From assembly GCA_903813345.2 (NCBI GenBank), contig CAIIXF020000001.1, positions 58,512,270-58,576,269 on the forward strand: DNA of 64,000 nt, read 5' to 3'. This document shows, in pieces, positions 15,501-35,900 of the stretch. The translations under genes were made by a program, and so were the position numbers. How positions within the stretch are numbered: the stretch's first letter is position 1; each line of letters begins with the position of its first letter. The notes below the pieces were generated by a model. It had not been told where the DNA came from, made no database searches, and saw nothing but the letters and a program-made list of their open reading frames with translations. The DNA is from Owenia fusiformis (lineage: Eukaryota; Annelida; Polychaeta; Sabellida; Oweniidae).

Positions 15501-18387
15501 TAAGCTTTTGATCTAAAATAACACCAAGGTGTTTATGACTAATAGTTTTAGGAATGGGGTCACCTCCCAAATAGAGTATAGGTTCATTAACAGGGTTTGT
15601 TAAAGGTGATGTAAAAGTCAGGTCAGCACTTTTTGATGCCTTAAATTTCATTTGCCAGGTATCAGCCCAGGTTTTAATTGTATTTAGGTCCATTTGCAGA
15701 TTTTGAGAGAGTAAAGGGCTTTTCTTAGAGTAAGGAAGGAAGATTGATGTATCATCTGCATAAATGAAAGTCTTACAATTTAGGTTATCAGGTAGATCAT
15801 TTATATACATTAAAAACATAAGCAGCCCTAATACACTGCCTTGTGGCACACCAGCATTGATAAAATCAGGTTCTGACCATTTCGAGAAAGAATTATTTAC
15901 TTTAACCTTCACTTGTCTTTGTGACAGATATGAATTCATTAAAAGTAAGAGATTATTGTTGATGCCATAAGATCTCATCTTTTGTAATAGTAATTGATGC
16001 GGAACGACGTCAAAAGCTGACGCTAAATCAAGAAAGATAGTTCTTACATTGTTTCCATTATTCAATTCTTCTTGAATGCAATGAATAATATATGAAAGTT
16101 GGGAAGTGGTATTATGCTTAGGAAGAAATCCTGACTGAAAACTGTAAAAGAGGTTATTTTGGATCATGTGATTGAAAATTCTATCATAAATAATCTTTTC
16201 CAGAACTTTAGATAAGGCATTTAACAATGTGACTGGTCTATAATTGACAACTTTAGATCTATCTCCTTTCTTGTGTAATGGAACAATAATACCCTCTTTC
16301 CAAATCTTTGGGAAACAATGAGATGTAAAAATTTTGTTAAAAAGCAAACTCAATGGTTCACATATCGTCTCAGCTGATAAAATTAGCATTCTATTATTTA
16401 TTTTATCTGTCCCCTCCCCCTTTGATGCATCAAGTTGTTGAAGTAGTTTTAAAACCTCATTCTTATCAGTAAAAATATCTTCCAAGTTTAGATTACACCT
16501 TAATGGAAAATTTGGTAATGGTTCGTGTATTTGATCTACGTTGTTCTTCTGGATAAAATATTTAAGAAAAAGTTCAGCTTTCTCAGAAGAAGATCCCGCA
16601 GATAGTTTAGGATTATCTAAATGTAAATAAGGCAGTGACACATTAAATGACTTTCCAAGTAGCTTCTTCAAAAGTATCCAGTAATCTGTTGAGTTTCTAT
16701 TTAAATCTGATAAAGTTCCACATGTTGATTCTATATGTTTACGCTTAGCTTCATTTATCATATTTACAACACATAAGCTTTGTTCTTTGTATTTTTGAAG
16801 AAAGGTTAAATCATTTGAATGTTTAAATTTATGATGAAGTCAATCTCGTTTATTAATTTGCTTCTTTATATCAGAATTGAACCAAGGCTGATCGTTTTCT
16901 TTTATTAAAACCTCTTTATGCGGAATTGTTTCCTTAAAAATGTTGAACAAAGTATCAACAAACCTATGAGTGGAAATATGAACATTTTGAAGTTCTAAGA
17001 TCTCTCCCCAGTTTGAATTAAGTATTCTTTGATTCAATATTGTTTTATTAAGTTTATCATATTGCCAAATGATTTTCTTGGTTGGAGTTTCTTTAATAAT
17101 GTTCATTTTTAGGTATGTTAACAAAGTGCAATGATCAGTATTTCCTACTGGTGGTAGAACTTTATGATTAGATATTATATTAATATTATCTGTAAAAGAC
17201 AAGTCTATACATGATTTAGTAATAAAGTTGTTACGAGACTGCACTCTTGTTGGTTCATCTATAAGTTGTATAAAATTAAGATCAAATAAGATGTTGTGCA
17301 AGTTAGTCCCTGCTTCATCAACTTTATCATCTTTCCACCAAAAAGAATTACGTGCATTAAAATCTCCATTTACTACAGTTGATCCAGGAAGTTTCTGAGC
17401 ATCCTCAAGGTTTTTACCAAGTAATTTGAAATAGTCTAGTCTACTTATTTTATCTTGTGAAGGTGATCTATAAAATACTCCATAATTGAATAGTTTACCA
17501 CTTACTTTAAGATTTAACCAAATATTTCCTAGTGTATCATTCATTAGTTCATGAATTATTTCAGCTTCTAATGAATTATGAACATATAGTATAAGACCTC
17601 GATTATTTGATCTGTAATGTTTAAGTTCAAAATTGTCAATTTTAAGATCTTTTTGTATGTCACTATTTGTCAAATTTCCCACCTCACATAGAGCAATAAC
17701 TTTAATTTGTTGCTCTTTTACTTTGAACTTTAGTGCTTCAAAACGTGCTAAACTATTTGCTTTGAGACTATTAATATTAGAAAATAATATGGGTAATTCT
17801 GATATAGGACCTGGATTTTTTTCAATGTCACCAGATAAATATAATAATTGAGAGCAATCATATAAGCAATCGAGTAAAGGTGAGCCAGGAAATATCAGCA
17901 ATATTAAAAGTAATTTAAATATTCTAATTAAAATCTTGAAGTATGACGTATTTGATGTAAAAGAAATATAACCGATGCAATAGTAGACAATTAAAATGAT
18001 CATACTTTGATATTTTTCAGGATGACCTATCAGGTGATTACAAGAAGATCATAGTTGCTCTGGTAAATGGTAATGGCTGTGGAGTGAAGTCATCCAGTGG
18101 GCAGACAGAGAATGTCTTCAAACCAGATGGTGTGTGGCAACTAGATTCTCTCTAAGAATGGTCAAAGAAAAAAATGGATATTTTTTAATCTTTTTGGTTC
18201 ATTTCACCAAATCATGATTATCATTGTCAAAGTAACCCTGTACCAAAGTAACAATCATCTGTGTACAGAACAGAAAATGTTTTTAACCAGACTTGTTTTG
18301 TTTCAATAAAAACAGTTTAAAAAGAATGCTAATGACTTCTATGTATGTTTTTCTGCAGATGCAGCCAGTGGGGATGAAGAGGACTAG
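5031..18387 (+). CDS. ANXA6-like: Annexin A6-like octad gene, repeats 3-8 (5' exons not in window)
   Basis: Ten exons join in a single frame: 5031-5220, 6115-6296, 10102-10242, 10550-10726, 11062-11175, 12464-12554, 13021-13347, 13615-13796, 18021-18129, 18359-18387. They total 1542 nt, 513 codons plus TAG. Annexins bind anionic phospholipid in a Ca2+-dependent way at membranes. Six annexin repeats are readable with type II Ca2+ loops ([28 protein letters not shown]) and two KWGTDES loops typical of repeats 3 and 7. A proline/acid-rich linker ([21 protein letters not shown]) separates the two tetrads. A complete octad is about 670 aa, so about 150 aa (repeats 1-2) are missing. The last intron carries a LINE, and the last two exons are repeated downstream by the tandem triplication. 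Confidence 0.9.
5431..5721. repeat. MITE-like element with 14-bp inverted ends, annexin intron
   Basis: TTATTATGCACCTC at 5431-5444 is matched perfectly by its reverse complement GAGGTGCATAATAA at 5708-5721. The roughly 290-bp interior has no convincing coding sequence. Flanking target duplication is not clear. Confidence 0.6.
6115..6296 (+). CDS. ANXA6-like: Annexin exon: repeat 4
   Basis: Acceptor ttgttgcag; begins with two bases completing Val and ends at a complete Ile codon (donor gtaagt). 182 nt, the same length and phase as its paralogue 13615-13796 (repeat 8). It contains the Ca2+ loop MQGLGTND and the [10 protein letters not shown] helix. Confidence 0.92.
6395..7680. repeat. Inverted-repeat-bounded element in annexin intron
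   Basis: The left end (tacaggataagccaaat, then aaatcttaataactcag) is mirrored at 7620-7680 (ctgagttactaagattta, ggctgaccctgtgta). A second inverted pair lies inside: 'tttcattggtctatt' near 6476 and 'aatagaccaatgaaa' near 7195, with similar flanks. The interior has no intact protein. This looks like a degenerate DNA-transposon derivative of about 1.29 kb. Confidence 0.5.
8483..9280. repeat. CpG-rich TIR element rich in CGTTC/GAACG motifs
   Basis: CTATCACACCAAACTAGTTCT at 8483 is repeated inverted as AGAACTAGTTTGGTGTGATAG, ending at 9280. A third, related end (acttgtttggtgtgatagct) lies internally near 8877-8896. The inside is much richer in CpG than its surroundings, with dozens of CGTTC/GAACG pentamers in both orientations. 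No transposase can be read. Non-autonomous DNA transposon, possibly composite. Confidence 0.7.
9469..9504. repeat. (AAAT)n microsatellite, probable retroposon tail
   Basis: About eight AAAT units. The 150 bp before it begins with 'acagggtgtgtcataca', which resembles sequences at 1961 and 5939 (acagggtatc). This suggests a SINE or LINE 3' end with a simple-repeat tail. Confidence 0.7.
10102..10242 (+). CDS. ANXA6-like: Annexin exon: end of repeat 4 and inter-tetrad linker
   Basis: Acceptor ttttgtag, donor gtatta; 47 codons, phase 0 at both ends. It starts [16 protein letters not shown], the final helices of the first tetrad. It then becomes a proline/acid-rich linker ([26 protein letters not shown]). 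This is where an octad annexin joins its two four-repeat cores, and it is the main reason for the A6-like call. Confidence 0.88.
10550..10726 (+). CDS. ANXA6-like: Annexin exon: repeat 5, first part
   Basis: 59 codons in phase 0 (acceptor ttttacag, donor gtaggg). It opens the second tetrad with [20 protein letters not shown], the type II Ca2+ loop and helix A/B of an annexin repeat. It then reads [20 protein letters not shown]. Confidence 0.92.
11062..11175 (+). CDS. ANXA6-like: Annexin exon: repeat 5 end / repeat 6 start
   Basis: 38 codons, phase 0 (acceptor ttatgttctag, donor gtatgt). It encodes [20 protein letters not shown], then ELHKAMK. The exon ends immediately before the GLGTD Ca2+ loop, so an optional cassette here would fall inside that loop. 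Confidence 0.92.
11451..11468 (+). CDS. ANXA6-like: Candidate 18-nt cassette microexon in annexin repeat 6 loop
   Basis: Between two phase-0 exons lies 'ccattacag', 18 nt encoding G-D-R-G-E-T, then 'gtgggt'. Both splice signals are acceptable and the length keeps frame. Inclusion would give AMK-GDRGET-GLGTDE, placing six residues in the Ca2+ loop and creating a K-G-D triplet. No transcript evidence; the pyrimidine tract is only moderate. Confidence 0.3.
11469..12463. other. Annexin intron, nothing further seen
   Basis: Plain AT-rich intron without inverted-repeat elements or exons that I can support. Confidence 0.4.
12464..12554 (+). CDS. ANXA6-like: Annexin exon: repeat 6 Ca2+ loop
   Basis: Acceptor ttctattttag, donor gtaagt; 30 codons plus one base. 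It encodes [20 protein letters not shown] and the AAVKAAYRR helix. The split codon with the next exon is Leu (t|ta). Confidence 0.92.
12862..12960. repeat. Dispersed repeat, second copy near 57655-57765
   Basis: 'agtggtgacatactgttatagtctc ... ttttgtgacagtg' here matches 'agtagtgacatattgttatggtctc ... ttttgtgacggtg' in the distant GNAT intron. Both continue into 'ggttgg.gt.tg.catctgtaacaaat'-like sequence. Interspersed element of unknown class. Confidence 0.55.
13021..13347 (+). CDS. ANXA6-like: Annexin exon: repeat 6 end and repeat 7
   Basis: 327 nt (acceptor ttttattttag, donor gtaagg). It encodes [20 protein letters not shown], a linker helix with [19 protein letters not shown], and [20 protein letters not shown]. 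The long repeat 6-7 exon contrasts with the split arrangement in the first tetrad. Confidence 0.93.
13615..13796 (+). CDS. ANXA6-like: Annexin exon: repeat 8
   Basis: 182 nt (acceptor tgcttccag, donor gtaagt). It begins with two bases completing Ile and encodes [18 protein letters not shown], the Ca2+ loop KGLGTDDD and [12 protein letters not shown]. The following intron carries the LINE. Confidence 0.93.
14275..14288. repeat. LINE target-site duplication, left copy (decoy splice acceptor)
   Basis: ATATTTTTCAGGAT, identical to 18010-18023. It is the genome-side copy of the duplicated annexin 3' splice site. It still contains ttttcag|GAT but now runs into the LINE poly(T), so using it would not give annexin sequence. 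Confidence 0.88.
14560..16761 (-). pseudogene. LINE ORF2, reverse transcriptase half
   Basis: 733 aa from an internal Met, in the same frame as the upstream endonuclease half. Motif [10 protein letters not shown] is at about 243-251, motif [10 protein letters not shown] at 304-312 and catalytic YADD at 334-337. Fingers motifs are PLHKKGD and [19 protein letters not shown]. The C-terminus has a Cys/His cluster (CNCG at 653-656, then [11 protein letters not shown]) that is common in CR1-like and related elements. The usual Pro after the motif B 'GSVLG' is Leu. RT residues look intact, but the premature stop upstream means the whole protein cannot be made without readthrough. Confidence 0.92.
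16840..18003 (-). pseudogene. LINE ORF2, 2A-like leader and endonuclease half
   Basis: 387 aa. Residues 1-55 are hydrophobic (membrane or signal-like), followed by [11 protein letters not shown] with the 2A-type core D59-I-E-K-N-P-G-P66. The endonuclease/exonuclease/phosphatase domain follows: SNINSL at 75-80, catalytic E107 in [12 protein letters not shown] at 213-220 and NTDHCTLL at 288-295. The frame ends in TGA at 16842-16840. Without that codon it continues in frame for 26 residues into the reverse transcriptase ORF. GAT-TGA fits a CpG transition from GAT-CGA. Confidence 0.92.
18010..18023. repeat. LINE target-site duplication, right copy (working annexin acceptor)
   Basis: ATATTTTTCAGGAT. 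It includes the last 11 intron bases and the first codon (GAT) of the annexin exon. Copies lie at 29851-29864 and 42165-42178 in units 2 and 3. Confidence 0.9.
18021..18129 (+). CDS. ANXA6-like: Annexin exon: end of repeat 8 and C-terminal tail
   Basis: Encodes [19 protein letters not shown], the last annexin helix, then a Ser/Gly-rich tail. It is paralogous to the start of exon 10102-10242 ([16 protein letters not shown]). Its acceptor lies within the LINE target-site duplication, so branch point and most of the pyrimidine tract now come from LINE sequence. Donor gtgtgt; ends in phase 1. Confidence 0.93.
18359..18387 (+). CDS. ANXA6-like: Annexin terminal coding exon
   Basis: Acceptor tttttctgcag. 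With the split Asp codon it reads D-A-A-S-G-D-E-E-D then TAG at 18385-18387. The short acidic C-terminus comes after a 229-bp intron. Confidence 0.9.
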
Positions 18388-19102
18388 GGATCTCTCCAAT
18401 GGCCAGTTTTCCAGATACTGTGCATCATAAGAAATTGGAACCTCTTGGTTAAAGTGAACAACTGATGAACATGTCAAATTAATTTGAAATATGCACAGAA
18501 ACACTATTTGGCTGTGAGGCTCTGTGAGACTGTTTGTTGTTCCCTACCTGCGAATGAGCTATCAAGACATGAACGCTGGTAGAATCAGGGTTGAAACGTC
18601 AGGGAAATTCAGAATTTCTTTAAAAGTGGCTAAAATGATCTGGAAATTTTCAAATTCTTTGAATAGTCGGTAGAGCTCAAGTGATTGAAGTTTTGAGACA
18701 AACTAAAGAGAAAAAACTAAAAGATAACTACCTAGATAAAATCATGTAGTTGCAGTCAGTGCCCTTGTAATTGTTTCTTTTATGTACTTTATTTTTCTTT
18801 AATACTTTTACATTTAGATATAAATTATAAAATTTGCAATATGCCATATCTATTTACAATGTTGCTTATGCTGGCATACAGTGTGTTTATGATATTTTGT
18901 GTAAAAAATAGGAAAGATAATATAGCCTATATGCTGTTGTACTATATACATTTTATTGTATAGATATTTAGTATATTTAGTATATACAAAATGTATATGT
19001 AAATTGTGTACAAAATTGGAATCATGCTTTATGTTACCACTTCAAGAGTAAAAATGGCAGGTGGTGACATTTGCATGTTAATGTCTTGTTACAGTATGGC
19101 TT

Positions 19103-19108
19103 AATAAA
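19103..19108 (+). terminator. Candidate annexin poly(A) signal
   Basis: AATAAA in 'ggcttaataaagagggtgg', about 715 bp after the stop codon and followed by GT-rich sequence. Other AATAAA motifs occur near 20333 and 20820, so the true cleavage site is not fixed. Confidence 0.45.
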
Positions 19109-20532
19109 GAGGGTGGTAGTTTGAGTTGCTTCAAAGTATAAGCTTGAGATCAAAACATTCCAGTTCATGGTGTGTGTCATAAGATTTTAAGATTAAGTGG
19201 TTAAAATTGGATTTTACATACCAGTATATAGGCTGGAATTATTATCGTGTCTAAAGTTCACTGGTAACTGTTCCAGTGCTTACTTTTTCCATAAAATGCA
19301 CTTATGTTTCTTAAAGAGCTGTGCCGTCCAACATTGTTGCAATATTTTATCTATACAGTATACACTTTATTCCTACATGTATATACACAGTGACAGTTTA
19401 CTGCACACTCTGTGAAGTTTATCTTACATTTTATTTTTAATCTACATGTATATATTATACATAATTATGACAAGTTCTTTTTTATATAAAAAGCTTGATT
19501 TTATGTTTAGAGTTGTAATATAGGAATTCTGTATTGTGCATTCAGTATGAAGCATCAACAACAATGAATAGACATCATAAAATCAATTGATCTAAGTGCT
19601 GATTGGTTTAGATTTACTTTCCACAAATTATTTGTCTTCCCTCACAAGTTCTCAGAATCAAAATTCCCAAAATATATCCATTATATGTACTGTCATCCGT
19701 CCATGCATGTTTTTTGTAAAAGTATGCCTTTAGTACTATATTCACTTATTTAAAAATAGATTGCAAATAGGAACAAAGCTATTTTGAAGTACTTCATTGG
19801 GATATTTTTTTTTATTTGAAAGGATGATTGTACAGTTTAGCTCAATAAGTAAAGCTAATTTTGCTTTAAAACTTTTATTTTGCAATATCTATATCAAATT
19901 TACATAGCAGTAGCATTATGCATTTCACAAACCATCCTGAAAGGTTGGCAAAAGTATGCTGATATTTGGCACTGTAGTGGTTGTCATAGTAACTTGAAGT
20001 AGGGTTCAACGGAGCAAATCATAACCAATAAAAACTTGGCTATAAATATTCAATGCAAAATATTTTTAGAGCAGAATTAGCTTTACTTATTGAACAACCT
20101 GTAAATTGTTTTTGTTATTTTGTAGAATTTTAGATTAGTTCAAAATATATATTGATGTTACAAAGTACATTTGTTTGTTTTCTTGTGAATTGAATTGAAT
20201 TGTGATGGGCACTACACCATGGTATGTAGTGGTAGCCACTACACCATGGTAACACAATATTTCAAAAGAAAACATATTCAAGGCAAAGACTTGAATGATA
20301 AAGCTTGACATTCACTATTTATGTCTCAGCAATAAACCATTGACAAACCATTGAACGACCTATTTCAACAAAGTTGCATCTATATGTTATTTAAAGCAGC
20401 AGAATTCTCAGCTTTAAGCCCTGACTGCAAAGCAAAATGGGTTTGGGAGATAGTTTCAGTAATCAATTGGGGAAAGATCAATTTTTATTTTTATAGACAA
20501 GATATATGGATCATATGCTTACAATGTATTGT

Positions 20533-20717
20533 CAGGCCTGTAGCCAGGGGATTCCCCCCCCACCTCCCTGGCCAAAAAATCTTTCAAAGTCATGCTCATT
20601 CTGAGCACTTTTTAAGTGATTTTGGCCATTTTTTGATCAAAATTGTCACAAGTGAAGCCCCCCCTGGAATTTTTCAAAAAGTGAACGTCCCCTTGGCAAA
20701 TCCTGGCTACGGGCCTG
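20533..20717. repeat. MITE with CAGGCC(T/C)GTAGCCAGG ends (unit 1)
   Basis: Left end CAGGCCTGTAGCCAGGGG, right end CCTGGCTACGGGCCTG, flanked by ATTGT on both sides. 185 bp. 'Gcc-gtagccagg' elements of this type are widespread in invertebrate genomes. Copies at 32375-32560 and 44689-44874. Confidence 0.8.
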
Positions 20718-20989
20718 ATTGTCATTATCTGAATGTATATTTCAGTTTGTTATATTTATATGATATGGTGCACTTGGCTATCGCAACCATGGCTCACAAC
20801 CCATGTGCCACTGAGAGCAATAAATAAATGAAAAAATAAAACAATGAGTTACCATCTTGGAGAATGCCAAAGCTCACTATTCTTCAACTTGTATTAACTA
20901 AATCAGTATTACAAAACTTATCTCTATGCTCATTTCAAAACTAACAAACATCCAGCATTATCTATCTGTTGATAGGACTTCAGAATCAC

Positions 20990-21110
20990 TGTGGATCCAT
21001 TTATATCAGAACATTGCCGTCAAATTAAACACGTGCTTCTGTTTACAAACAAACAAATTGACCAATAAGAGCTCTTCCTTTTTTTAACCGCGGGACAGGT
21101 TTGTTGAAAA
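20990..21110 (+). promoter_or_regulatory. GNAT gene promoter and 5' UTR (unit 1)
   Basis: The sequence before the ATG holds an E-box CACGTG (21030-21035), a CCAAT box (21062-21066) and 'ccgcggg'. The start context is gaaaaATGGCG, with A at -3 and G at +4. No TATA box is placed well. Near-identical promoters precede the copies at 32954 and 45268. Confidence 0.45.
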
Positions 21111-24100
21111 ATGGCGTCCATAACTGCACCAGTTTCTCCAGTTTTTCAAACTAATATCGACAATTACTTCAATACTACAGGAGGAAATGTTGCCGAAATG
21201 AATCTCCACGATGCATTAGATATCGAGGAAGACGGAGAGTTTGTGAAGGGTGCACAATTTGCTGGGAAACAGGAATTTCGAGACAAGAAAGGAAAATGTG
21301 TTAGAATTTCGCCGCTGCTCGTTGATTTCCGAAGATTGCTAGGCTCAAAATTATCGGCGGAAGTCATTGAAGGGGTATGCACGTTGTTTGAGGATAATTT
21401 CATTTATACTTTTTTATGCTTGCTCTATTGACTTCATTTTCTTTCTAGAGTCCATTTCATTGTTTAACTGCGTCAGTAAAAGCTAAAAAATAAGAAATCA
21501 AAATATCATTTTGCAATAAGACTTATATAGGGGAAATGGTCCTATCACCGCACGGGTATGGAATTGTATGAAATTCTTCAAATTACAAGACGGCACAGGG
21601 TTATTCAATGCACAAAAAAACTAAAAAATCTGAAATATACAAATGTCATTCATGTACATTATGAATATACTTTTCCATATATTATTGCACAATGGTCTCC
21701 CAATTTCTTATTTTTGCCGTTCTACTGACGCAATGAAGCAGTGAAATGGACTCTAGACGAATTCCTGTGGATGGGGCAGCAGCTTACAGCTAGAATATCT
21801 ACCTTTAGAGTCAAGTCTTGTTTTAACATTAGCTTAAAGGATGTATAAAACTATCAAGAGCTTGAAAAACGATAAAAATGAGTTTTTTTAAGAATACCAT
21901 CAATTAAATTCAATTTCATCAATTAAATGCAATAACTACGCTTTCGCTTAGATAATCAAATGTGAAAGTGCTCTAATAACGAAAGTGAAAGTATTGGGCC
22001 ATTGTAAGGAATTCCCCAAAACAACTATCACAATGATTGTCTGCATATTACCTAACGCATATTGATGTTGTCATACTCGTGGCCTGCTTTTTGGGAAATC
22101 CAATGTAATGTGATGTCATTACCCTAAGAACGATAGCTTTCGAGAAACCCCCTAACTGTTATTGGATAACTAGAGTGCAATAAACATTCTATCATATTGC
22201 AATCAATTCCTCATATTAATACAACTATATGATAATAATAGCGCATCATGCTTTTAAGAAATAAGCCTAAAAACGTCAGTGTTATTGTAATTGAATTAAG
22301 GTGGGCCCCCCACTGAACGAAACATTCTTGTTTAAAGTGGGGTTCATTGTAACAGCTCACACTCCGTCAATATTTTATCAATTTCTGTTTTCTTTATATG
22401 GAATGAAAGATGGGTATCCACTACAATAGTAAAAACAGTATTATAAATGCACTGCAACATGCTGTATTGAGGCTTTGAAAAGGAGTGAAAATCACTTTAA
22501 TAGTTATATACAACTTGTAACATTTGAATGTGGTGCCAGGGAGCCCTACTTAAGAATTGAATGCTTAAAATCCCTCAGTATTATGTGTGATTGTCCAGTC
22601 CCATTCCCTACTACTATTCTACTACTATGCAGGTTTTACATTTTACCAATCTTACACAATATACAATGACTGAATAAACTTTGCGAAACTGGTGTAAAAC
22701 TCCCATTTACCTTTGCATGTATGAAAATGATAAAGGTATAAATGTTTTACATTTAGGTATCTAACAGAGAGCTGTTGCATGCTGTGATAGGCCTGTATGA
22801 TGTTTCGTTGAGTGAGATGACACCTGAGGTCTTATATGGAACTGTCTGCGAGAAATGGGCAAGAACAGCTATCCTACTACGTGATACTAAAGGTACAGTG
22901 ATTTACAAAGATAACATTTTCACTTCATTATAGTTACTGTGATATGAACTTGTAAATATTCCTATTATTAGCTCCTACTCCCTTATAATTGCCTGCACCA
23001 CCTTTGCAATCTATTAAGGATGATGTGAAGAATGTCAAGGGAATATCTGTATTAAAGATAATGAGCATTTTATAGTTACGAACTAATACACACAATGTAT
23101 TACTAAAACCTATATATTCCTTGAGAAAAAGCTTTTGGACTCTCCATGGACCATTCATGAGCTCCTTGTCCCATTTTTTGAATCTGAACTCAACCACCTG
23201 ATCCAATGGAAAATCATTTAAACATCAATATTGAATTTTTTGTACACACACCCATAATTCGAAACTCTTTTGAAATGCCCTACACACTTAACATTTTATA
23301 TTTTCTAGATGTTTTGGAGGAGTTTGAAAGAAAACGAGCTAAAAAAGCAAAAAACACTGAAGCACCATCACCAAAAAGCATTCCAAATGAAACAACACCA
23401 CTACAAAGCAATGAAGACATTAAAGTGATTGACCTTGAAGACAATAATCAATCCCAATCCCCAGTGACCACCCCAACCCCTCAAACTGCATCCTCCACAG
23501 AGGAAACACCTACTAGTCAAATCACCAAAGATCTCAATGCTCAAGTAAAGCAAAATGAAAATACCTCTTCTGATAATGATCTGATTACATATGAAGATAT
23601 AGCTGCTGAGATAATGCAGGATATAGAAGATGCTGTCAATGATAAAGGATCTGATATTCTTGAGCCTGAAGAAACTAAACCGTGCAAGTTTGCTAATTGT
23701 TATAGTGATACTGAAGATGAGGATGAAGATGATGACAGGTGAGATGGGGAACACTTAGATAACAAAACAGGAAATGATTTTAATTTCCAACCCTACAAAA
23801 TTATTTATTTAGTAATTTATAAATGATAAGCTATGTGCCATATTTGGGATTCATTGAAAGAATTCAGAAAATGTGAATATGACATAAAATATTGTGAATA
23901 TAGAAAAAATTAATTTTGAAATGTTTACACTTTGTCCTTTTCTGGGATTTATGTGAAGTACACAAAGGTTGAATTCTCTTTTTATGAATGATTTTTTTCA
24001 GTGAAGATGATGAAGAAGATTTCAGTAAGGGCATCAATACATTTCTAGAATGTGTGCGCGAACGTCGTCAAATAAGAGACAACCATGTTGGCCCTTTCAC

Positions 24101-26613
24101 TAGCAAACATGTAGGGATAGAAAATAGGGTTGTGGCTGCTGCTACCTTTGAAAAGGCATTTTGTGGGTAAGATTGATAGACCAGTTGAACTGTAATATGA
24201 ACACTATTTGGTCTGTCTAAGAGGACAAATCATAATAGTATAAGTCAATATAACCTCAAAGTCATTAGTTTTCATTCTTAAAACACTTGACAAAATCAAT
24301 AAATGCTCAAGTTTATTTTTGGGTCTGAAGTGTTTTTTTCGATTTTCGGCTAACATCAAATATTGACCTGGTCTCTATAGGTGTTCATTTATGTGGTGTT
24401 CATAATTCAGGATAGGTTGATAGGACAGACTTGCAGTTCAGGGAAATAGAAAATTTTAATATTTTTATAATGTTCACATAATGATCGTATCACATTTTGG
24501 AAAATGCTTGTCAAATGTGATACAAGAAGGTATTCTACATTTGTATGTTATATTTAAACAAAATATTTGTGACATTATCAAGTGCCATATATCATAATCA
24601 TGTACCTGCATATTTTCTTTTTTTCCAGGAAACGTAGTGAAAAAGTCAATCATTTAACTGTAATAGCTGTGAGGAAACGCTACCAAAAATGGGGAATAGG
24701 CAGATATTTATTATCAGTAAGTATGAATACTTTAATATATCACAGGTACTAAACAAAACTCAATATGCAATAAGTGTTTTAATCTCCTGGTTAAGCTGAT
24801 GATACTGCGAAGTTCACTTATACAATCACTTGCCTCAGCTAGGAAACTGCTGAGCAAATTCAGAGAATAATGAAGCCTGTGTGTACCCGTGTGTTCTCTT
24901 CAATAGAAAATTATGTTCACGCTTTAATCACATTTTCTTCATGTTTGAAATATAGCATACATGTCTGTTCATTCTCAGTTCTACATTTATTCACTGAATC
25001 AATCATTTTCAGCAATTAAAGAATCCTCAAGTCATTGGGCAGTATGATGTCATTGTGGTGCACGCTGATAACTCCGCCATTGATTTCTTTGAGCGTTATG
25101 GTTTTACAGATGATGTAGTTCTTAATAGTAAATGGAGGTTTGTGTAGGGATCATGTCAGTTCAAACCATTTTGACACCTCCTTTTCACTTAAAACCAAAA
25201 CTTATCATTGATAAGCTAAAAGTTAAAACAATGTTTTCAACAGAATTGAACTGGTTATTGGCTGTAAATTGTTAAATCATCTTATCTGATTTCGAATAAT
25301 TCATGAATTATATAAAAAGGAATGTTTTTAAACTTATAGATAACTGATATTAATTTGTTCATAGAGATGGCAACTTTATACATACATATTTACAGGTTAT
25401 GACAGTTTACATATAAGGAAAGTGTTGTGCTATATTTATAAGTTATATGTATAACAGTTTATAAAAGGGAAGTGGGTATTTTATTAGATATATTCTATAT
25501 GTTGTATTTCCAGTGAGTTAGCAGATCAATACACAAACTGCACTTTGATGTGTTACATGCCTCCTTTCACAGGTATGTAGCATAATCACATTTTGATTAC
25601 TTAAAGTGGCAGTAAAGACTAGAGAGTGTAAAATGTTGGGAGCAATGTTTTCAAAAAGCAATGTCGAAGTCACCCTCATGATTGTTATTTCAGTATCTAA
25701 ATGATGCACTGAAATTTCTGAGAAAATATGGAAGTTATTGAAGATTTACGATGCAGACATGTCCAAATATGTCCTTTTTCAGTTTTTCGCCTGAAGCATT
25801 ACCCTAAAATAAAGTCAGAATTACAGTATTGGACTTTGTAGGAAATAACCTTGACATGGAATCTTATGTTGAGACCATTTTAAAATGTTTTAAAAGTTAC
25901 TTACAACTTATCTCTAGTCTTTTGTGCTCCTTTAATATATCTCTTATACCTGTAGGACTTATATATCTAATCTTGGAGAAAGCTGTAATTTTTAGCCATA
26001 CATTCAGGGGCAAAAGTTGCACTTTTGAGATGTTGGTAAAATATTGGACACAATGATGGTTTGTAGTAAGTTGTGATTACAACATAAATAAATATCAACT
26101 AACTTGGTTATATAAGATCAGTTTTATATTTTTTATGCTCTCACCTGTTCCATTTCCAGGTCAGAGTATTTTGGGCAAGTCGGACCCTGCTCTTGATATT
26201 GTAGCAATGGAGAAAGAACTTGCATCATGGTGAGTAGTTTAGGTTATATTAAAAAGAAATTTTCTTTTACAGTAAAACCTGAACACATAATGAGCTGATG
26301 GGAATATTGCTAAAAGACTTCACACTTTATGAGGTCTTTAAATGTTGATACTTTTACTTGGAATCTTAGTCTTTTACGCCCGCTTTTACGTTTACTCCAC
26401 TCATTTAAATGTTTACATATATTGATAATGTCCAAATACCATTTTCTTGGGTCTGCATTCCTTCAATATTTATTTCATTGGTCACTTTCAAGAAAAGAAA
26501 GCTATGAATATTTTTGATTGACTTGCAGGAGGAACAAGAACCTAGAAGCTTACCAGGCCCAGGCATCTTGCTTACAGAGAATGAGGCATGAGATAATACA
26601 CCTTAGAGCATTG
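21111..26613 (+). CDS. GNAT-like acetyltransferase gene, truncated copy 1 (exons 1-9)
   Basis: Exons 21111-21374, 22757-22892, 23309-23738, 24002-24166, 24629-24716, 25013-25137, 25514-25572, 26160-26229, 26529-26613 join in frame to 474 codons with no stop. Exon content is as in the complete copy starting at 45268. Residue 369 is Ile here and Val in the other copies. The donor after exon 6 is gtttgt instead of gtatgt. The copy ends where unit 1 ends, so the coiled-coil exon 10 is missing. The next same-strand acceptor in phase 0 is that of the duplicated annexin exon at 29862, which allows an in-frame fusion. Could be an expressed chimera, a dying copy or an assembly duplicate. Confidence 0.75.
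21448..21753. repeat. TA-flanked MITE, GNAT intron 1 (unit 1)
   Basis: GAGTCCATTTCA at the left end and TGAAATGGACTC at the right end, each next to TA. Imperfect inverted homology runs about 50 bp inward (gcgtcagta, aataagaaat). 306 bp. Copies at 33291-33596 and, split by a younger insert, 45605-46556. Confidence 0.8.
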
Positions 26614-28712
26614 GTATGTAACATCATTTATCCCATAATCACGACAATATTAATAAATAAAGTTACATGAATATAAAAGTTCACACTTTGAATACTCAGG
26701 TTGATATCAGAAAATACATTGGTTATATCATCTCAATATTTTCATCTACATTCCCTTGGCGGATATCACATACCCTCCTTTAATACTATGTGTCCAGAGG
26801 ATAAATTCTTATTTATCTCTTATTTAGTAGGCTTAAAGGGAAATAACAGCAGGACATATATACTTTCTAATTGCCAATTTGCTCATTTAGTACATTTCTC
26901 GTTTGAACTTTTCAATACCTTTCATTTGGTGCAAATCTCATCAAAATTGGGGAAACGTAGAAACAAGAGATGTCAGATTTCATAATTTACTCTTTAGGCG
27001 TGGTTTAGGACACTGATGCCATTACCATAGCAACCTTATAGGAAAAATTCAGACGTATTTCTTCATAAGGATTCCAAAAATGTATAACAAGTATGTTTAC
27101 TCAATGTCCCTTATTGAATCATTTTCTGCCCAGATCTGCCTGCATAAAAAATTAAAAACATATAGATGAAACAAAATTTTTGCTGTTGTCAAAGCCATAT
27201 GTTCTCATTGATAAATCGTCCTGGATGTGCATCAAAGGTTTGAATCTGGTATCTGCGTCTGTCAAGCATTCTTCCCTGAATGCATTAATCAACTAAAGAC
27301 TTGATATGATCAATTAAATTAAATACAATCAAACTTGTTTTGATAACAAAATACCTAGCACATATCTCTCGTGTTCTATTTAAAATAACATAAAATAGGC
27401 CCATTTAGTCTAATTTGCCTTTCGTTTTTAAGTAAAGTAGAAAGTGAACATTTTTAATCTATTTTCTCATCATCTTTCTAAAAGAGCAAAAATAATGTTG
27501 ATTACGGATTTTACTTTCTTAAACTTTACTTTTCTAAGAAAAAAATTATTGAATAGATGGTGTATGTACATGCTGAATAATTTCTGAGCAAATGTCAATG
27601 AAGTTGAACTCAGGCTATGATGACTGACTTCAATAATTCAAGAATTTATTAAAGACACTCTAATTAGGTACTTTATGTACTCCCCAGGTAAAGGAATCTG
27701 AGATTGTTTTATTTCAATAAAACATGCAAATAACATTATCACATATATCCTGACTGGCAGATGATATTACTGGGATTATTTTTCAAAGTCCTGCTTGTAT
27801 TTTGAAAATCAAATATATAAAGGATAACCTATTTTCATGAAATATGTATGCAACAAGTGTTAAAATGGGAAAAGGAAAAGAATAAGTGGTGTAGATAAGT
27901 ACTCACATAGTCATTGAATCGTATCGCCAAGGTGTTATAGAATTTGTCTCGATTAGAAGTTCAGATTTTGCAAATTATTCAAAGAGTCTGAGATTCGCGA
28001 ATTTGTATTCTCATTCGCGATTCAACAGTGAATCCTGACGTCAGATGCATTGTTTTTTCTCACAAACAGTGTCAAACTATGTACAAAATGATTGTTCCAT
28101 GTATTATTTGTTTGAATGAATATGAGTAATAAATCTGATTTGAAAAGTGACAAAACTGCCATGTCTGTGAAAATCAAAATAATTTGGATTTCCATGAACT
28201 ACGCTTTTGCATCCATCGAACACAGGCCTCCAGAACTCGCACCTCCTTCAGAATGAAAATAGTCAGAATTTCATCAGTCCAATAGCAACATCCATGTCCA
28301 AATATTTTACATATAATTTTTCATTGGAAATCATAGCAAATATTTTCATTCCTAATTTATTTAATTAGACTTAAGGTACTTTTAAGTATTATTATCACAG
28401 CACTTCTTGTGATTTGTCTTTGACCTATGACTGCTGACCTATACCGGCGATTACTAGAGTGCTGCTAACTCGATAAAAGGCTGGCGCTGGCCAGAATTGT
28501 CTATGGTTCTAGCAAGGATAAAGATACCAGTTCTTCACCTCGACAATGGGAAGAACTGCTCTACCTTAGTGACTAATATGTCATGATATGACATCTAAAG
28601 AGTCAATAAAAGATATATATCATCTATTTTGTCTTAATTGTTTAAAGGACAACTGAAATAGGTTTTCTCAACTTGCAGCTACAAAAATGCGATTTTCTTC
28701 ATTGTATTAGCC
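26614..28712. other. GNAT intron 9 fragment at the end of unit 1
   Basis: Intron sequence without exons. The last 74 bp or so (28639-28712) have no counterpart in unit 3, where homology stops near 54355. They are present again at the unit 2/3 junction. Confidence 0.6.
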
Positions 28713-29850
28713 CAGAATTGAACCAAGGCTGATCGTTTTCTTTTATTAAAACCTCTTTATGCGGAATTGTTTCCTTAAAAATGTTGAACAAAGTATCAAC
28801 AAACCTATGAGTGGAAATATGAACATTTTGAAGTTCTAAGATCTCTCCCCAGTTTGAATTAAGTATTCTTTGATTCAATATTGTTTTATTAAGTTTATCA
28901 TATTGCCAAATGATTTTCTTGGTTGGAGTTTCTTTAATAATGTTCATTTTTAGGTATGTTAACAAAGTGCAATGATCAGTATTTCCTACTGGTGGTAGAA
29001 CTTTATGATTAGATATTATATTAATATTATCTGTAAAAGACAAGTCTATACATGATTTAGTAATAAAGTTGTTACGAGACTGCACTCTTGTTGGTTCATC
29101 TATAAGTTGTATAAAATTAAGATCAAATAAGATGTTGTGCAAGTTAGTCCCTGCTTCATCAACTTTATCATCTTTCCACCAAAAAGAATTACGTGCATTA
29201 AAATCTCCATTTACTACAGTTGATCCAGGAAGTTTCTGAGCATCCTCAAGGTTTTTACCAAGTAATTTGAAATAGTCTAGTCTACTTATTTTATCTTGTG
29301 AAGGTGATCTATAAAATACTCCATAATTGAATAGTTTACCACTTACTTTAAGATTTAACCAAATATTTCCTAGTGTATCATTCATTAGTTCATGAATTAT
29401 TTCAGCTTCTAATGAATTATGAACATATAGTATAAGACCTCGATTATTTGATCTGTAATGTTTAAGTTCAAAATTGTCAATTTTAAGATCTTTTTGTATG
29501 TCACTATTTGTCAAATTTCCCACCTCACATAGAGCAATAACTTTAATTTGTTGCTCTTTTACTTTGAACTTTAGTGCTTCAAAACGTGCTAAACTATTTG
29601 CTTTGAGACTATTAATATTAGAAAATAATATGGGTAATTCTGATATAGGACCTGGATTTTTTTCAATGTCACCAGATAAATATAATAATTGAGAGCAATC
29701 ATATAAGCAATCGAGTAAAGGTGAGCCAGGAAATATCAGCAATATTAAAAGTAATTTAAATATTCTAATTAAAATCTTGAAGTATGACGTATTTGATGTA
29801 AAAGAAATATAACCGATGCAATAGTAGACAATTAAAATGATCATACTTTG
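28713..29850 (-). mobile_element. LINE 5' fragment, unit 2
   Basis: Carries the 2A-like leader and endonuclease ORF (29844-28699; the frame runs a few codons past the junction and ends G-L-I-Q). The reverse transcriptase is absent because the duplication breakpoint cuts the element. The 2A motif is at 29647-29670. Confidence 0.92.
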
Positions 29851-29861
29851 ATATTTTTCAG

Positions 29862-30228
29862 GATGACCTATCAGGTGATTACAAGAAGATCATAGTTGCT
29901 CTGGTAAATGGTAATGGCTGTGGAGTGAAGTCATCCAGTGGGCAGACAGAGAATGTCTTCAAACCAGATGGTGTGTGGCAACTAGATTCTCTCTAAGAAT
30001 GGTCAAAGAAAAAAATGGATATTTTTTAATCTTTTTGGTTCATTTCACCAAATCATGATTATCATTGTCAAAGTAACCCTGTACCAAAGTAACAATCATC
30101 TGTGTACAGAACAGAAAATGTTTTTAACCAGACTTGTTTTGTTTCAATAAAAACAGTTTAAAAAGAATGCTAATGACTTCTATGTATGTTTTTCTGCAGA
30201 TGCAGCCAGTGGGGATGAAGAGGACTAG
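29862..30228 (+). CDS. Duplicated annexin terminal exons, unit 2
   Basis: Copies of the last two annexin exons at 29862-29970 and 30200-30228, with acceptor and donor signals identical to unit 1. They have no annexin exons directly upstream. The nearest upstream same-strand exon is GNAT exon 9 of unit 1, with matching phase 0. They encode a 45-aa tail ending in GDEED. Confidence 0.7.
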
Positions 30229-32374
30229 GGATCTCTCCAATGGCCAGTTTTCCAGATACTGTGCATCATAAGAAATTGGAACCTCTTGGTTAAAGTGAAC
30301 AACTGATGAACATGTCAAATTAATTTGAAATATGCACAGAAACACTATTTGGCTGTGAGGCTCTGTGAGACTGTTTGTTGTTCCCTACCTGCAAATGAGC
30401 TATCAAGACATGAACGCTGGTAGAATCAGGGTTGAAACGTCAGGGAAATTCAGAATTTCTTTAAAAGTGGCTAAAATGATCTGGAAATTTTCAAATTCTT
30501 TGAATAGTCGGTAGAGCTCAAGTGATTGAAGTTTTGAGACAAACTAAAGAGAAAAAACTAAAAGATAACTACCTAGATAAAATCATGTAGTTGCAGTCAG
30601 TGCCCTTGTAATTGTTTCTTTTATGTACTTTATTTTTCTTTAATACTTTTACATTTAGATATAAATTATAAAATTTGCAATATGCCATATCTATTTACAA
30701 TGTTGCTTATGCTGGCATACAGTGTGTTTATGATATTTTGTGTAAAAAATAGGAAAGATAATATAGCCTATATGCTGTTGTACTATATACATTTTATTGT
30801 ATAGATATTTAGTATATTTAGTATATACAAAATGTATATGTAAATTGTGTACAAAATTGGAATCATGCTTTATGTTACCACTTCAAGAGTAAAAAATGGC
30901 AGGTGGTGACATTTGCATGTTAATGTCTTGTTACAGTATGGCTTAATAAAGAGGGTGGTAGTTTGAGTTGCTTCAAAGTATAAGCTTGAGATCAAAACAT
31001 TCCAGTTCATGGTGTGTGTCATAAGATTTTAAGATTAAGTGGTTAAAATTGGATTTTACATACCAGTATATAGGCTGGAATTATTATCGTGTCTAAAGTT
31101 CACTGGTAACTGTTCCAGTGCTTACTTTTTCCATAAAATGCACTTATGTTTCTTAAAGAGCTGTGCCGTCCAACATTGTTGCAATATTTTATCTATACAG
31201 TATACACTTTATTCCTACATGTATATACACAGTGACAGTTTACTGCACACTCTGTGAAGTTTATCTTACATTTTATTTTTAATCTACATGTATATATTAT
31301 ACATAATTATGACAAGTTCTTTTTTATATAAAAAGCTTGATTTTATGTTTAGAGTTGTAATATAGGAATTCTGTATTGTGCATTCAGTATGAAGCATCAA
31401 CAACAATGAATAGACATCATAAAATCAATTGATCTAAGTGCTGATTGGTTTAGATTTACTTTCCACAAATTATTTGTCTTCCCTCACAAGTTCTCAGAAT
31501 CAAAATTCCCAAAATATATCCATTATATGTACTGTCATCCGTCCATGCATGTTTTTTGTAAAAGTATGCCTTTAGTACTATATTCACTTATTTAAAAATA
31601 GATTGCAAATAGGAACAAAGCTATTTTGAAGTACTTCATTGGGATATTTTTTTTTATTTGAAAGGATGATTGTACAGTTTAGCTCAATAAGTAAAGCTAA
31701 TTTTGCTTTAAAACTTTTATTTTGCAATATCTATATCAAATTTACATAGCAGTAGCATTATGCATTTCACAAACCATCCTGAAAGGTTGGCAAAAGTATG
31801 TTGATATTTGGCACTGTAGTGGTTGTCATAGTAACTTGAAGTAGGGTTCAACGGAGCAAATCATAACCAATAAAAACTTGGCTATAAATATTCAATGCAA
31901 AATATTTTTAGAGCAGAATTAGCTTTACTTATTGAACAACCTGTAAATTGTTTTTGTTATTTTGTAGAATTTTAGATTAGTTCAAAATATATATTGATGT
32001 TACAAAGTACATTTGTTTGTTTTCTTGTGAATTGAATTGAATTGTGATGGGCACTACACCATGGTATGTAGTGGTAGCCACTACACCATGGTAACACAAT
32101 ATTTCAAAAGAAAACATATTCAAGGCAAAGACTTGAATGATAAAGCTTGACATTCACTATTTATGTCTCAGCAATAAACCATTGACAAACCATTGAACGA
32201 CCTATTTCAACAAAGTTGCATCTATATGTTATTTAAAGCAGCAGAATTCTCAGCTTTAAGCCCTGACTGCAAAGCAAAATGGGTTTGGGAGATAGTTTCA
32301 GTAATCAATTGGGGAAAGATCAATTTTTATTTTTATAGACAAGATATATGGATCATATGCTTACAATGTATTGT

Positions 32375-32560
32375 CAGGCCTGTAGCCAGGGGATTCCCCC
32401 CCCCACCTCCCTGGCCAAAAAATCTTTCAAAGTCATGCTCATTCTGAGCACTTTTTAAGTGATTTTGGCCATTTTTTGATCAAAATTGTCACAAGTGAAG
32501 CCCCCCCTGGAATTTTTCAAAAAGTGAACGTCCCCTTGGCAAATCCTGGCTACGGGCCTG
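32375..32560. repeat. MITE with CAGGCC ends (unit 2)
   Basis: Copy of the element at 20533-20717, with a C-run one base longer. Confidence 0.8.
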
Positions 32561-32953
32561 ATTGTCATTATCTGAATGTATATTTCAGTTTGTTATATTT
32601 ATATGATATGGTGCACTTGGCTATCGCAACCATGGCTCACAACCCATGTGCCACTGAGAGCAATAAATAAATGAAAAAATAAAACAATGAGTTACCATCT
32701 TGGAGAATGCCAAAGCTCACTATTCTTCAACTTGTATTAACTAAATCAGTATTACAAAACTTATCTCTATGCTCATTTCAAAACTAACAAACATCCAGCA
32801 TTATCTATCTGTTGATAGGACTTCAGAATCACTGTGGATCCATTTATATCAGAACATTGCCGTCAAATTAAACACGTGCTTCTGTTTACAAACAAACAAA
32901 TTGACCAATAAGAGCTCTTCCTTTTTTTAACCGCGGGACAGGTTTGTTGAAAA

Positions 32954-35900
32954 ATGGCGTCCATAACTGCACCAGTTTCTCCAGTTTTTCAAACTAATAT
33001 CGACAATTACTTCAATACTACAGGAGGAAATGTTGCCGAAATGAATCTCCACGATGCATTAGATATCGAGGAAGACGGAGAGTTTGTGAAGGGTGCACAA
33101 TTTGCTGGGAAACAGGAATTTCGAGACAAGAAAGGAAAATGTGTTAGAATTTCGCCGCTGCTCGTTGATTTCCGAAGATTGCTAGGCTCAAAATTATCGG
33201 CGGAAGTCATTGAAGGGGTATGCACGTTGTTTGAGGATAATTTCATTTATACTTTTTTATGCTTGCTCTATTGACTTCATTTTCTTTCTAGAGTCCATTT
33301 CATTGTTTAACTGCGTCAGTAAAAGCTAAAAAATAAGAAATCAAAATATCATTTTGCAATAAGACTTATATAGGGGAAATGGTCCTATCACCGCACGGGT
33401 ATGGAATTGTATGAAATTCTTCAAATTACAAGACGGCACAGGGTTATTCAATGCACAAAAAAACTAAAAAATCTGAAATATACAAATGTCATTCATGTAC
33501 ATTATGAATATACTTTTCCATATATTATTGCACAATGGTCTCCCAATTTCTTATTTTTGCCGTTCTACTGACGCAATGAAGCAGTGAAATGGACTCTAGA
33601 CGAATTCCTGTGGATGGGGCAGCAGCTTACAGCTAGAATATCTACCTTTAGAGTCAAGTCTTGTTTTAACATTAGCTTAAAGGATGTATAAAACTATCAA
33701 GAGCTTGAAAAACGATAAAAATGAGTTTTTTTAAGAATACCATCAATTAAATTCAATTTCATCAATTAAATGCAATAACTACGCTTTCGCTTAGATAATC
33801 AAATGTGAAAGTGCTCTAATAACGAAAGTGAAAGTATTGGGCCATTGTAAGGAATTCCCCAAAACAACTATCACAATGATTGTCTGCATATTACCTAACG
33901 CATATTGATGTTGTCATACTCGTGGCCTGCTTTTTGGGAAATCCAATGTAATGTGATGTCATTACCCTAAGAACGATAGCTTTCGAGAAACCCCCTAACT
34001 GTTATTGGATAACTAGAGTGCAATAAACATTCTATCATATTGCAATCAATTCCTCATATTAATACAACTATATGATAATAATAGCGCATCATGCTTTTAA
34101 GAAATAAGCCTAAAAACGTCAGTGTTATTGTAATTGAATTAAGGTGGGCCCCCCACTGAACGAAACATTCTTGTTTAAAGTGGGGTTCATTGTAACAGCT
34201 CACACTCCGTCAATATTTTATCAATTTCTGTTTTCTTTATATGGAATGAAAGATGGGTATCCACTACAATAGTAAAAACAGTATTATAAATGCACTGCAA
34301 CATGCTGTATTGAGGCTTTGAAAAGGAGTGAAAATCACTTTAATAGTTATATACAACTTGTAACATTTGAATGTGGTGCCAGGGAGCCCTACTTAAGAAT
34401 TGAATGCTTAAAATCCCTCAGTATTATGTGTGATTGTCCAGTCCCATTCCCTACTACTATTCTACTACTATGCAGGTTTTACATTTTACCAATCTTACAC
34501 AATATACAATGACTGAATAAACTTTGCGAAACTGGTGTAAAACTCCCATTTACCTTTGCATGTATGAAAATGATAAAGGTATAAATGTTTTACATTTAGG
34601 TATCTAACAGAGAGCTGTTGCATGCTGTGATAGGCCTGTATGATGTTTCGTTGAGTGAGATGACACCTGAGGTCTTATATGGAACTGTCTGCGAGAAATG
34701 GGCAAGAACAGCTATCCTACTACGTGATACTAAAGGTACAGTGATTTACAAAGATAACATTTTCACTTCATTATAGTTACTGTGATATGAACTTGTAAAT
34801 ATTCCTATTATTAGCTCCTACTCCCTTATAATTGCCTGCACCACCTTTGCAATCTATTAAGGATGATGTGAAGAATGTCAAGGGAATATCTGTATTAAAG
34901 ATAATGAGCATTTTATAGTTACGAACTAATACACACAATGTATTACTAAAACCTATATATTCCTTGAGAAAAAGCTTTTGGACTCTCCATGGACCATTCA
35001 TGAGCTCCTTGTCCCATTTTTTGAATCTGAACTCAACCACCTGATCCAATGGAAAATCATTTAAACATCAATATTGAATTTTTTGTACACACACCCATAA
35101 TTCGAAACTCTTTTGAAATGCCCTACACACTTAACATTTTATATTTTCTAGATGTTTTGGAGGAGTTTGAAAGAAAACGAGCTAAAAAAGCAAAAAACAC
35201 TGAAGCACCATCACCAAAAAGCATTCCAAATGAAACAACACCACTACAAAGCAATGAAGACATTAAAGTGATTGACCTTGAAGACAATAATCAATCCCAA
35301 TCCCCAGTGACCACCCCAACCCCTCAAACTGCATCCTCCACAGAGGAAACACCTACTAGTCAAATCACCAAAGATCTCAATGCTCAAGTAAAGCAAAATG
35401 AAAATACCTCTTCTGATAATGATCTGATTACATATGAAGATATAGCTGCTGAGATAATGCAGGATATAGAAGATGCTGTCAATGATAAAGGATCTGATAT
35501 TCTTGAGCCTGAAGAAACTAAACCGTGCAAGTTTGCTAATTGTTATAGTGATACTGAAGATGAGGATGAAGATGATGACAGGTGAGATGGGGAACACTTA
35601 GATAACAAAACAGGAAATGATTTTAATTTCCAACCCTACAAAATTATTTATTTAGTAATTTATAAATGATAAGCTATGTGCCATATTTGGGATTCATTGA
35701 AAGAATTCAGAAAATGTGAATATGACATAAAATATTGTGAATATAGAAAAAATTAATTTTGAAATGTTTACACTTTGTCCTTTTCTGGGATTTATGTGAA
35801 GTACACAAAGGTTGAATTCTCTTTTTATGAATGATTTTTTTCAGTGAAGATGATGAAGAAGATTTCAGTAAGGGCATCAATACATTTCTAGAATGTGTGC

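Follow-up and report, generated by a model that had tools for sequence, protein, structure and literature searches.

Predicted in-frame chimeric genes in a tandem array at an annexin/GNAT-PARP locus of Owenia fusiformis

The window, a 64,000-nucleotide stretch of Owenia fusiformis DNA, contains an array of head-to-tail units, which were delimited by self-BLAST and a difference map:

16873–28712 (+): unit 1, which starts inside the LINE of the annexin last intron and ends in GNAT-PARP intron 9
28713–41026 (+): unit 2
41027–54358 (+): unit 3, which holds exons 1–9 of the complete GNAT-PARP gene; its right edge is approximate (last match 28618–28645 versus 54331–54358)

Positions 16856–16872 were also considered as part of the unit 1 homology; on reading the sequence, these were rejected as edge noise. 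The breakpoints lie in two different genes on the same strand: the left in the last intron of the annexin gene (inside the LINE), and the right in intron 9 of GNAT-PARP. The junction at 28712/28713 sits between unlike sequences (a repeat end and the interior of the LINE), and the hybrid structure is present twice, running from unit 1 into unit 2 and from unit 2 into unit 3. Units 1 and 2 are distinguished by six single-base changes or 1-base indels in ~11 kb, plus one insertion of ~470 bases. Leaving aside a 644-base insertion, unit 3 is identical to unit 2 except for one base up to 48340; beyond this point unit 3 is a diverged haplotype, with the switch at 48341 falling inside an exon.

The annexin parent and its LINE comprise the following features:

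10550–10726, 11062–11175, 13021–13347 and 13615–13796 (+): modelled exons of the annexin parent
14288–18013 (−): LINE in the annexin last intron
18021–18387 (+): native annexin tail in unit 1, consisting of 18021–18129 and the last exon from 18359 (end placed by offset)

The annexin model lacks a 5' end, and at least one further exon is indicated by a Pfam match near 12461–12553, outside the modelled exons. The native join to the tail aligns with the Pfam Annexin profile along its whole length (66 of 66 positions, E 9.8e-23), and is gap-free in the two PDB matches with alignments shown. The sequence ATATTTTTCAGGA, which contains the splice acceptor, is found at both ends of the LINE (14275 and 18010). 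We read this pair as a LINE target-site duplication; it seems that the element inserted at the acceptor of the annexin exon and thereby duplicated it, the AGs of the two copies being at 14285 and 18020. The hybrids hold only the copy of the acceptor on the LINE side (score 9.9), and the other copy in the annexin intron is slightly better (10.78). Of the two parents, GNAT-PARP is complete and the last acceptor of annexin carries a LINE, by which it appears to be disturbed.

The second parent, GNAT-PARP, extends beyond the window:

45268–51499 (+): exons 1–9 of the complete gene (unit 3)
59615–59690 (+): exon 10, a coiled coil by its heptad pattern, VSSQQDLLTHLEAENEELSRDK
C1:58579779–58585221 (outside the window): exons 11–16

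Together, these 16 exons encode 747 amino acids without an internal stop. The PARP catalytic domain is recognized by Pfam (PF00644, 41.4 bits against a cut-off of 26.7, E 1.5e-10), as is the GNAT domain (above cut-off, E 1.1e-7); PF13673, PF13508 and PF00583 all exceed their cut-offs within residues 294–394 of the GNAT product. The sequence QKWGIG of this product is presumably the QxxGxG acetyl-CoA motif. A PDB search with exons 11–16 gave no match at E 0.01. The parent is hence a putative PARP/ADP-ribosyltransferase with a GNAT domain and a coiled coil, a composition that goes beyond the preliminary description of the locus, as does the apparent identity of the hybrid acceptor as a target-site-duplication copy beside the LINE. 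The pairing of a GNAT with a PARP domain was not found in the literature searched, and may still be described elsewhere. Exon 10 was one of 967 candidates; it combines an acceptor score of 9.8 with a heptad-like pattern of 0.625 and, while it tops the list by neither measure alone, was accepted because its inclusion results in a complete 16-exon gene.

A genome search places exons 10–16 only downstream of unit 3 (seven matches, one per exon). Exon 1 occurs at three places and exons 3–9 in 21 matches, all within the three units; no further copies of these exons were found in 525 contigs, by searches of a kind that can miss copies. Two small contigs were searched separately as possible haplotigs: one stretch is a multicopy repeat, and the other matched elsewhere in repeat parts only. 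Exons 1–9 are intact in all three units, with exon 9 ending in phase 0. Exon 1 also ends in phase 0, and phase 0 is found in six of the 15 GNAT-PARP introns.

The predicted chimeric genes are made up as follows:

21111–26613 (+): 5' part of chimera 1, GNAT-PARP exons 1–9 of unit 1 (474 codons, ending in phase 0)
21111–21374, 22757–22892, 23309–23738, 24002–24166 and 24629–24716 (+): exons 1–5 of unit 1
25013–25137, 25514–25572, 26160–26229 and 26529–26613 (+): exons 6–9 of unit 1
26614–29861 (+): intron of chimera 1, a hybrid of 3248 nt
28395–28620: SINE-like repeat in the hybrid intron
28713–29854 (−): antisense 5' fragment of the LINE, at the start of unit 2
29862–29970 (+): annexin terminal coding exon of unit 2 (phase 0)
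30200–30228 (+): annexin last exon of unit 2, coding part, ending DAASGDEED and stop
32954–38456 (+): 5' part of chimera 2, GNAT-PARP exons 1–9 of unit 2
42176–42284 and 42514–42542 (+): 3' part of chimera 2, annexin tail exons of unit 3 (ends by offset from unit 2)

The preliminary description had proposed that nine GNAT exons, encoding 474 residues and ending in phase 0 at 26613, are followed by a phase-0 annexin exon. Both elements were borne out: the nine unit 1 exons have GT/AG borders and together stay open for exactly 474 codons, and the annexin exon begins at 29862, directly behind an AG at 29860–29861. The corresponding exons of unit 2 encode a single amino-acid difference (I369V); unit 3 also has V369, and the I369 of unit 1 goes with a private base at 25034. 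In both units, the next known exons after exon 9 are the annexin terminal exons. The frame across the junction is open for 518 or 519 codons, depending on the last annexin intron. If this intron is kept, exon 29862 is read through to a stop at 29994–29996 (AATAAA at 30146), giving a 44-aa tail; if the donor at 29970 is joined to the last exon at 30200–30228, past which an AATAAA lies at 30945, the tail has the 45 aa originally predicted. The tail holds the end of annexin repeat 4 only, and exon 9 plus tail gave no Pfam match at E 1. The loss of the coiled coil foreseen in the preliminary description also holds, as judged by the heptad pattern of the absent exon at 59615–59690. The PARP catalytic domain is lost with it: neither unit 1 nor unit 2 gave a match to exons 13–16.

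An in-frame match is weak evidence when taken alone, because with six of 15 introns in phase 0 its prior chance is ~40%. The gene structure of the predicted in-frame chimera nevertheless has good support, because the breakpoints lie in introns of same-strand genes and exons 10–16 are absent between donor and acceptor. Exons 10–16 being found once, downstream of unit 3, units 1 and 2 are without a native 3' end. The DNA should therefore encode, in two nearly identical versions, a hybrid protein read in frame. Gene structures, phases, breakpoints, the single PARP half, the duplicated acceptor and the top acceptor score were all read from sequence. The earlier suggestion of the birth of a chimeric gene stands as far as the gene structure goes (phases, breakpoints and the location of exons 10–16 elsewhere); birth in the full sense needs a transcript too.

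The hybrid intron consists, in order, of the start of GNAT-PARP intron 9, the SINE-like repeat, the end of another repeat, the junction, the LINE fragment and the annexin acceptor; as had been proposed, it crosses both the unit junction and an antisense LINE. The annexin acceptor ranks first among the 166 AGs of the intron under a position weight matrix (PWM) built from 21 introns excluding that acceptor, and first of 170 under a PWM of 14 training sites. Its score of 9.9 compares with a median of 8.9 for known acceptors, and the runner-up, an AG at 29229, comes close with 9.61. The location of this acceptor agrees with the preliminary description; the "known use" ascribed to it there rests on annexin homology rather than on transcripts. 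At the expected place of the branch point, the annexin tail acceptor of the units has LINE DNA. The exon 9 donor is typical (8.1 by leave-one-out; the 21 donors span 2.3 to 9.5), and the acceptor of the annexin last exon (30200) is low-normal at 4.76.

The duplication is very young, going by the few differences between units 1 and 2. The LINE is older, and two other copies of it diverge from it by 0.9%. On its right side, unit 3 shows 9.0% noncoding divergence from units 1 and 2 (328 of 3642 sites; 2.6 to 19.7% by segment), with dS 0.16 and dN/dS 0.04 over 265 codons. Since the LINE that was cut is only 0.9% from its other copies, this divergence should predate the duplication, and is thus read as that of two haplotypes joined by a crossover or an assembly phase switch at 48341. 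An old duplication and selection on the chimera were rejected as its source.

We propose that a recent tandem duplication of the annexin/GNAT-PARP locus has probably produced an in-frame chimeric gene, the transcription of which, and its splicing from exon 9 to annexin, we infer. One breakpoint would have fallen in the LINE of the annexin last intron; the second would have cut intron 9 of GNAT-PARP, the neighbouring gene on the same strand. At the resulting junction, the GNAT-PARP upstream region and exons 1–9 would have met the remainder of the annexin intron with its terminal exons and poly(A) signals. A later unequal exchange may have added the second copy, placing two chimeras between annexin and the complete GNAT-PARP gene. 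Cells expressing GNAT-PARP would start transcription in the duplicated upstream region, and splicing of exon 9 to the annexin exon would yield a protein of 518 or 519 aa. This predicted chimera would consist of (i) the N-terminal region and GNAT domain, (ii) an interrupted coiled coil without PARP, and (iii) the tail of 44 or 45 aa. Its effect, if any, would most likely be that of an extra or PARP-less acetyltransferase rather than a new annexin function. We think it improbable that the full sequence of events ran from a LINE landing exactly on the acceptor, through a LINE-borne breakpoint of a segmental duplication that took along only the LINE-side acceptor and the capture of the 5' half of GNAT-PARP by the freed terminal exons, to two hybrid genes for a PARP-less acetyltransferase that rivals or supplements the parent enzyme, with the copy number of the array rising for that reason.

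The hybrids could also exist in DNA only, with transcripts of units 1 and 2 ending in intronic polyadenylation past exon 9 or the units being silent, and so amounting to truncated GNAT copies or pseudogenes. We hold this to be unlikely, though it is the most serious of the alternatives. Six AATAAA signals lie in the hybrid intron ahead of the acceptor, at 26652, 26656, 27716, 28128, 28605 and 29062. The first two are just past exon 9 and are not AATAAA in the complete gene (unit 3 reads AATGAT and ATTAAA at the matching positions); of the other four, 27716 and 29062 have counterparts in the native introns, and 28128 and 28605 fall outside the stretches matched to these. The LINE DNA upstream of the acceptor points the same way, but the acceptor itself scores above the known median. 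Moreover, native introns at this locus often contain AATAAA (intron 9 of GNAT-PARP in unit 3 has 18, the annexin last intron three), so that the motif by itself does not terminate transcripts. An assembly artefact, by stacked haplotypes or a repeat mis-join, would leave fewer chimeric junctions or none. Units of ~12 kb with 99.9% identity are hard to assemble, and the abrupt passage from identity to ~9% noncoding divergence at 48341 is what a haplotype switch would give. However, the window contains no N, the junction does not join two copies of one repeat, and the 525 contigs, within the reach of such searches, yielded no other copy of exon 1 or exons 3–9. In each of units 2 and 3 there are private insertions, which belong to transposon families with copies elsewhere; the units are therefore not one repeated sequence, which lowers the likelihood of an artefact to a rather small one.

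Two further outcomes concern splicing. Exon 9 could skip the annexin tail and join exon 2 of the next unit (at 34600 in unit 2), giving a single long product in which GNAT is repeated and PARP occurs once. Exons 1 and 9 both ending in phase 0 would allow this, and the exon 2 acceptor of unit 2, at 10.19, slightly exceeds that of annexin (its unit 1 twin is in the training set); but the nearer annexin acceptor and the AATAAA signals at 30146 and 30945 would have to be passed over, and we give this outcome little credence. Very little indeed is given to ordinary read-through between intact neighbours, in which a native terminal exon is skipped. A candidate for such an exon is a short phase-0 frame at 27688 (VKESEIVLFQ and stop) with the AATAAA at 27716 nearby. 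It was rejected: its acceptor scores −4.49 with the 14 training sites and −0.55 with 21, against 2.8 for the lowest known acceptor, its conservation is that of the local background only, and the complete 16-exon gene via 59615 replaces it. No terminal exon of the donor gene's own was encountered ahead of the annexin acceptor, exons 10–16 lying downstream of unit 3. Read-through, or transcription-induced, chimeras arise between same-strand neighbours by an in-frame splice into an exon of the downstream gene. The array resembles them in its same-strand layout and in the predicted splice, and differs in that native 3' exons are missing from the donor copy ahead of the acceptor; no terminal exon skipping is therefore needed.

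Retrotransposons can insert at splice sites or close to them, duplicating their target site at the intron–exon border; L1 and Alu insertions in NF1 are reportedly among the examples. The LINE and its putative target-site duplication at the annexin border are of this type, with the differences that the duplicated target holds the acceptor, and that a segmental duplication later separated the two copies. Our literature search found nothing related to an annexin/acetyltransferase-PARP chimera formed by tandem duplication. Chimeric genes formed by tandem duplication are known in Drosophila, where the 5' end of one gene is joined to the 3' end of another, as for GE18453 with GE18451 (PMC5460883). 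The junction described here has the same construction. Here, by contrast, the fused intron can be followed base by base, the array holds the hybrid twice, and the acceptor is apparently a target-site-duplication copy made by a LINE. As judged from its DNA, the array is an example of this kind of chimeric gene.

Most chimeric genes are seen long after their birth; here, both parents, the breakpoints, the transposon and the duplicated splice site are still legible. A chimera this young lets one ask, with RNA data, whether a competent hybrid is transcribed and spliced immediately. The locus also suggests that a target-site duplication can copy a splice acceptor, and thereby prepare the ground for exon shuffling.

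Three units lie head to tail in the window, as seen in a self-comparison and a difference map, and the 64-kb sequence contains 0 N. The features relevant to the rearrangement are as follows (C1, coordinates on the contig beyond the window).

14288-18013, minus strand: antisense LINE in the last intron of the upstream annexin gene
16873-28712: unit 1
26614-29861: hybrid intron, predicted to join the GNAT exon 9 donor (unit 1) to the annexin tail acceptor (unit 2)
28713-41026: unit 2
41027 to ~54358: unit 3
45268-51499: exons 1-9 of the complete GNAT-PARP gene (unit 3)
59615-59690: GNAT-PARP exon 10, downstream of unit 3, continuing the coiled-coil heptad pattern
C1:58579779-58585221: GNAT-PARP exons 11-16 (six exons), outside the window

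Over ~11 kb, six single-base changes or 1-base indels separate units 1 and 2, and unit 2 has in addition an insertion of ~470 bases. When unit 3 is compared with unit 2, its left part shows a single difference in 4813 bases; past a 644-base insertion of unit 3's own, the two match exactly until 48340. Haplotypes may have been stacked in the array, though this is the less probable reading: both insertions (39657-40127 in unit 2, 45819-46462 in unit 3) are private and MITE-like, with copies at ~100% identity elsewhere in the genome. The unit 2 insertion recurs at full length and 99-100% identity in at least seven other places, and in more at lower identity (40 of 251 first-look candidates scored); that of unit 3 recurs at 98-100%, complete or nearly so, in at least 39 (40 of 141 candidates scored). 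The insertions are members of transposon-like families and, because they are private, mark the units as distinct sequences.

Every unit carries the same nine GNAT-PARP exons (1422 nt, 474 codons, ending in phase 0), whose product contains a GNAT domain (Pfam). The complete gene has 16 exons and a 747-aa open frame, with a PARP catalytic domain at residues 585-740 (Pfam, E 1.5e-10); the exon 10 coiled-coil call comes from inspection and a crude heptad score. In a search of the genome (498,259,871 bases, 525 contigs, C1 of 62.2 Mb), which can miss matches, exon 1 DNA gave three matches and exons 3-9 gave 21, all inside the three units, while the exon 10-16 query (273 residues) gave seven, one per exon, all at this locus. 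The predicted protein thus combines an acetyltransferase domain of the GNAT type with a coiled coil and, towards its C-terminus, the PARP catalytic domain; we found no paper on the GNAT and PARP pair among the literature matches listed. Inverted repeat arms, ~89% alike, and a short tandem-repeat block lie downstream of unit 3, at 57791-58943 and 62989-63310.

The upstream annexin gene ends with exons 13615-13796 and 18021-18129, followed by the last exon. The 13796/18021 join is in phase 0, fills the Annexin profile (66/66 positions, Pfam) and opens no gap in either PDB alignment shown. Further upstream, annexin exons at 5031-6296 apparently belong to a second annexin gene, and more annexin matches lie at C1:58504612-58505606. 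The sequence ATATTTTTCAGGA is present at both LINE ends (14275 and 18010), suggesting that the LINE inserted exactly on the acceptor of the last annexin intron and that the target-site duplication supplied a second acceptor copy; we saw no copy of the site free of the insertion. The left copy has old intron upstream and LINE sequence downstream; the right has LINE DNA upstream and the annexin exon downstream. They rank first and second of 246 AGs (10.78 and 9.9, respectively), and splicing to the left copy would give 17 residues, then a stop. The breakpoint of the duplication falls within the LINE, at 16873, so that units 2 and 3 retain the right copy only. The LINE reading frame (16840-18003, minus strand) starts with what we take to be a 2A-like motif and has one in-frame stop between parts that we presume, from the family, to be endonuclease-like and reverse-transcriptase-like. 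Among the papers listed, we found no description of such a LINE/target-site-duplication history for a splice acceptor.

The preliminary description proposed an in-frame GNAT-annexin fusion, and as a predicted structure this is better founded than was then known: exon 9 ends in phase 0 after 474 codons, the hybrid intron donor scores normally, and the acceptor before 29862 ranks first of 166 AGs in the hybrid intron (matrix built from 21 introns, this acceptor left out), with the second-best AG, at 29229, scoring close to it (9.61). As proposed, the intron spans the unit junction and the antisense LINE fragment; at 28712/28713, that fragment abuts GNAT-PARP intron 9, whose final part holds a SINE-like element (28395-28620) followed by the end of another repeat. 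The annexin terminal exons come with AATAAA at 30146 and 30945. The predicted protein would be 518 aa long if the first of these exons is read through, and 519 aa if the last exon is joined by splicing. Phase 0 occurs in 6/15 GNAT-PARP introns, giving the frame match alone a ~40% prior chance; the case's weight lies instead on structure, because we found no 3' end for the truncated copies in units 1 and 2 other than the annexin terminal exons. A serious rival is that transcripts end early, by polyadenylation within the hybrid intron: six AATAAA motifs lie there, only two with counterparts in native introns, and unit 3 has other bases in place of the two AATAAA directly 3' of exon 9.

The expected coiled-coil loss holds in that the chimera lacks exon 10, and with it much of the coil, but the earlier account omitted the PARP domain, which is lost as well; judged from sequence, this combined loss would be the bigger change. 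The annexin tail holds the end of repeat 4 only and has no Pfam match, so annexin function is not expected.

The LINE differs from two other copies by 0.9%. As the breakpoint cuts this young element, the duplication is younger still, and the 9% by which unit 3 departs from units 1/2 in noncoding DNA beyond 48341 should therefore predate it. The switch, from near-identity, falls inside exon 3; we read the sequence beyond as a second haplotype, joined by crossover or by an assembly phase switch. The dN/dS of 0.04 in this diverged part is, given its age, a mark of the complete gene rather than of the chimera, whose sequence carries no sign of selection. Within intron 9, units 1 and 3 are ~97% identical at 26990-27350, while adjoining introns are far more diverged.

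The published Owenia fusiformis assembly, which this genome resembles, is given as 505.8 Mb with 12 chromosome-scale scaffolds (PacBio, purge_haplotigs, 3d-dna; PMC9977687); the fourteen developmental transcriptome samples reported in that paper could contain chimera junction reads. On our analysis, the event would be a very young new example of the tandem-duplication chimeric gene, a kind already known (PMC5460883).
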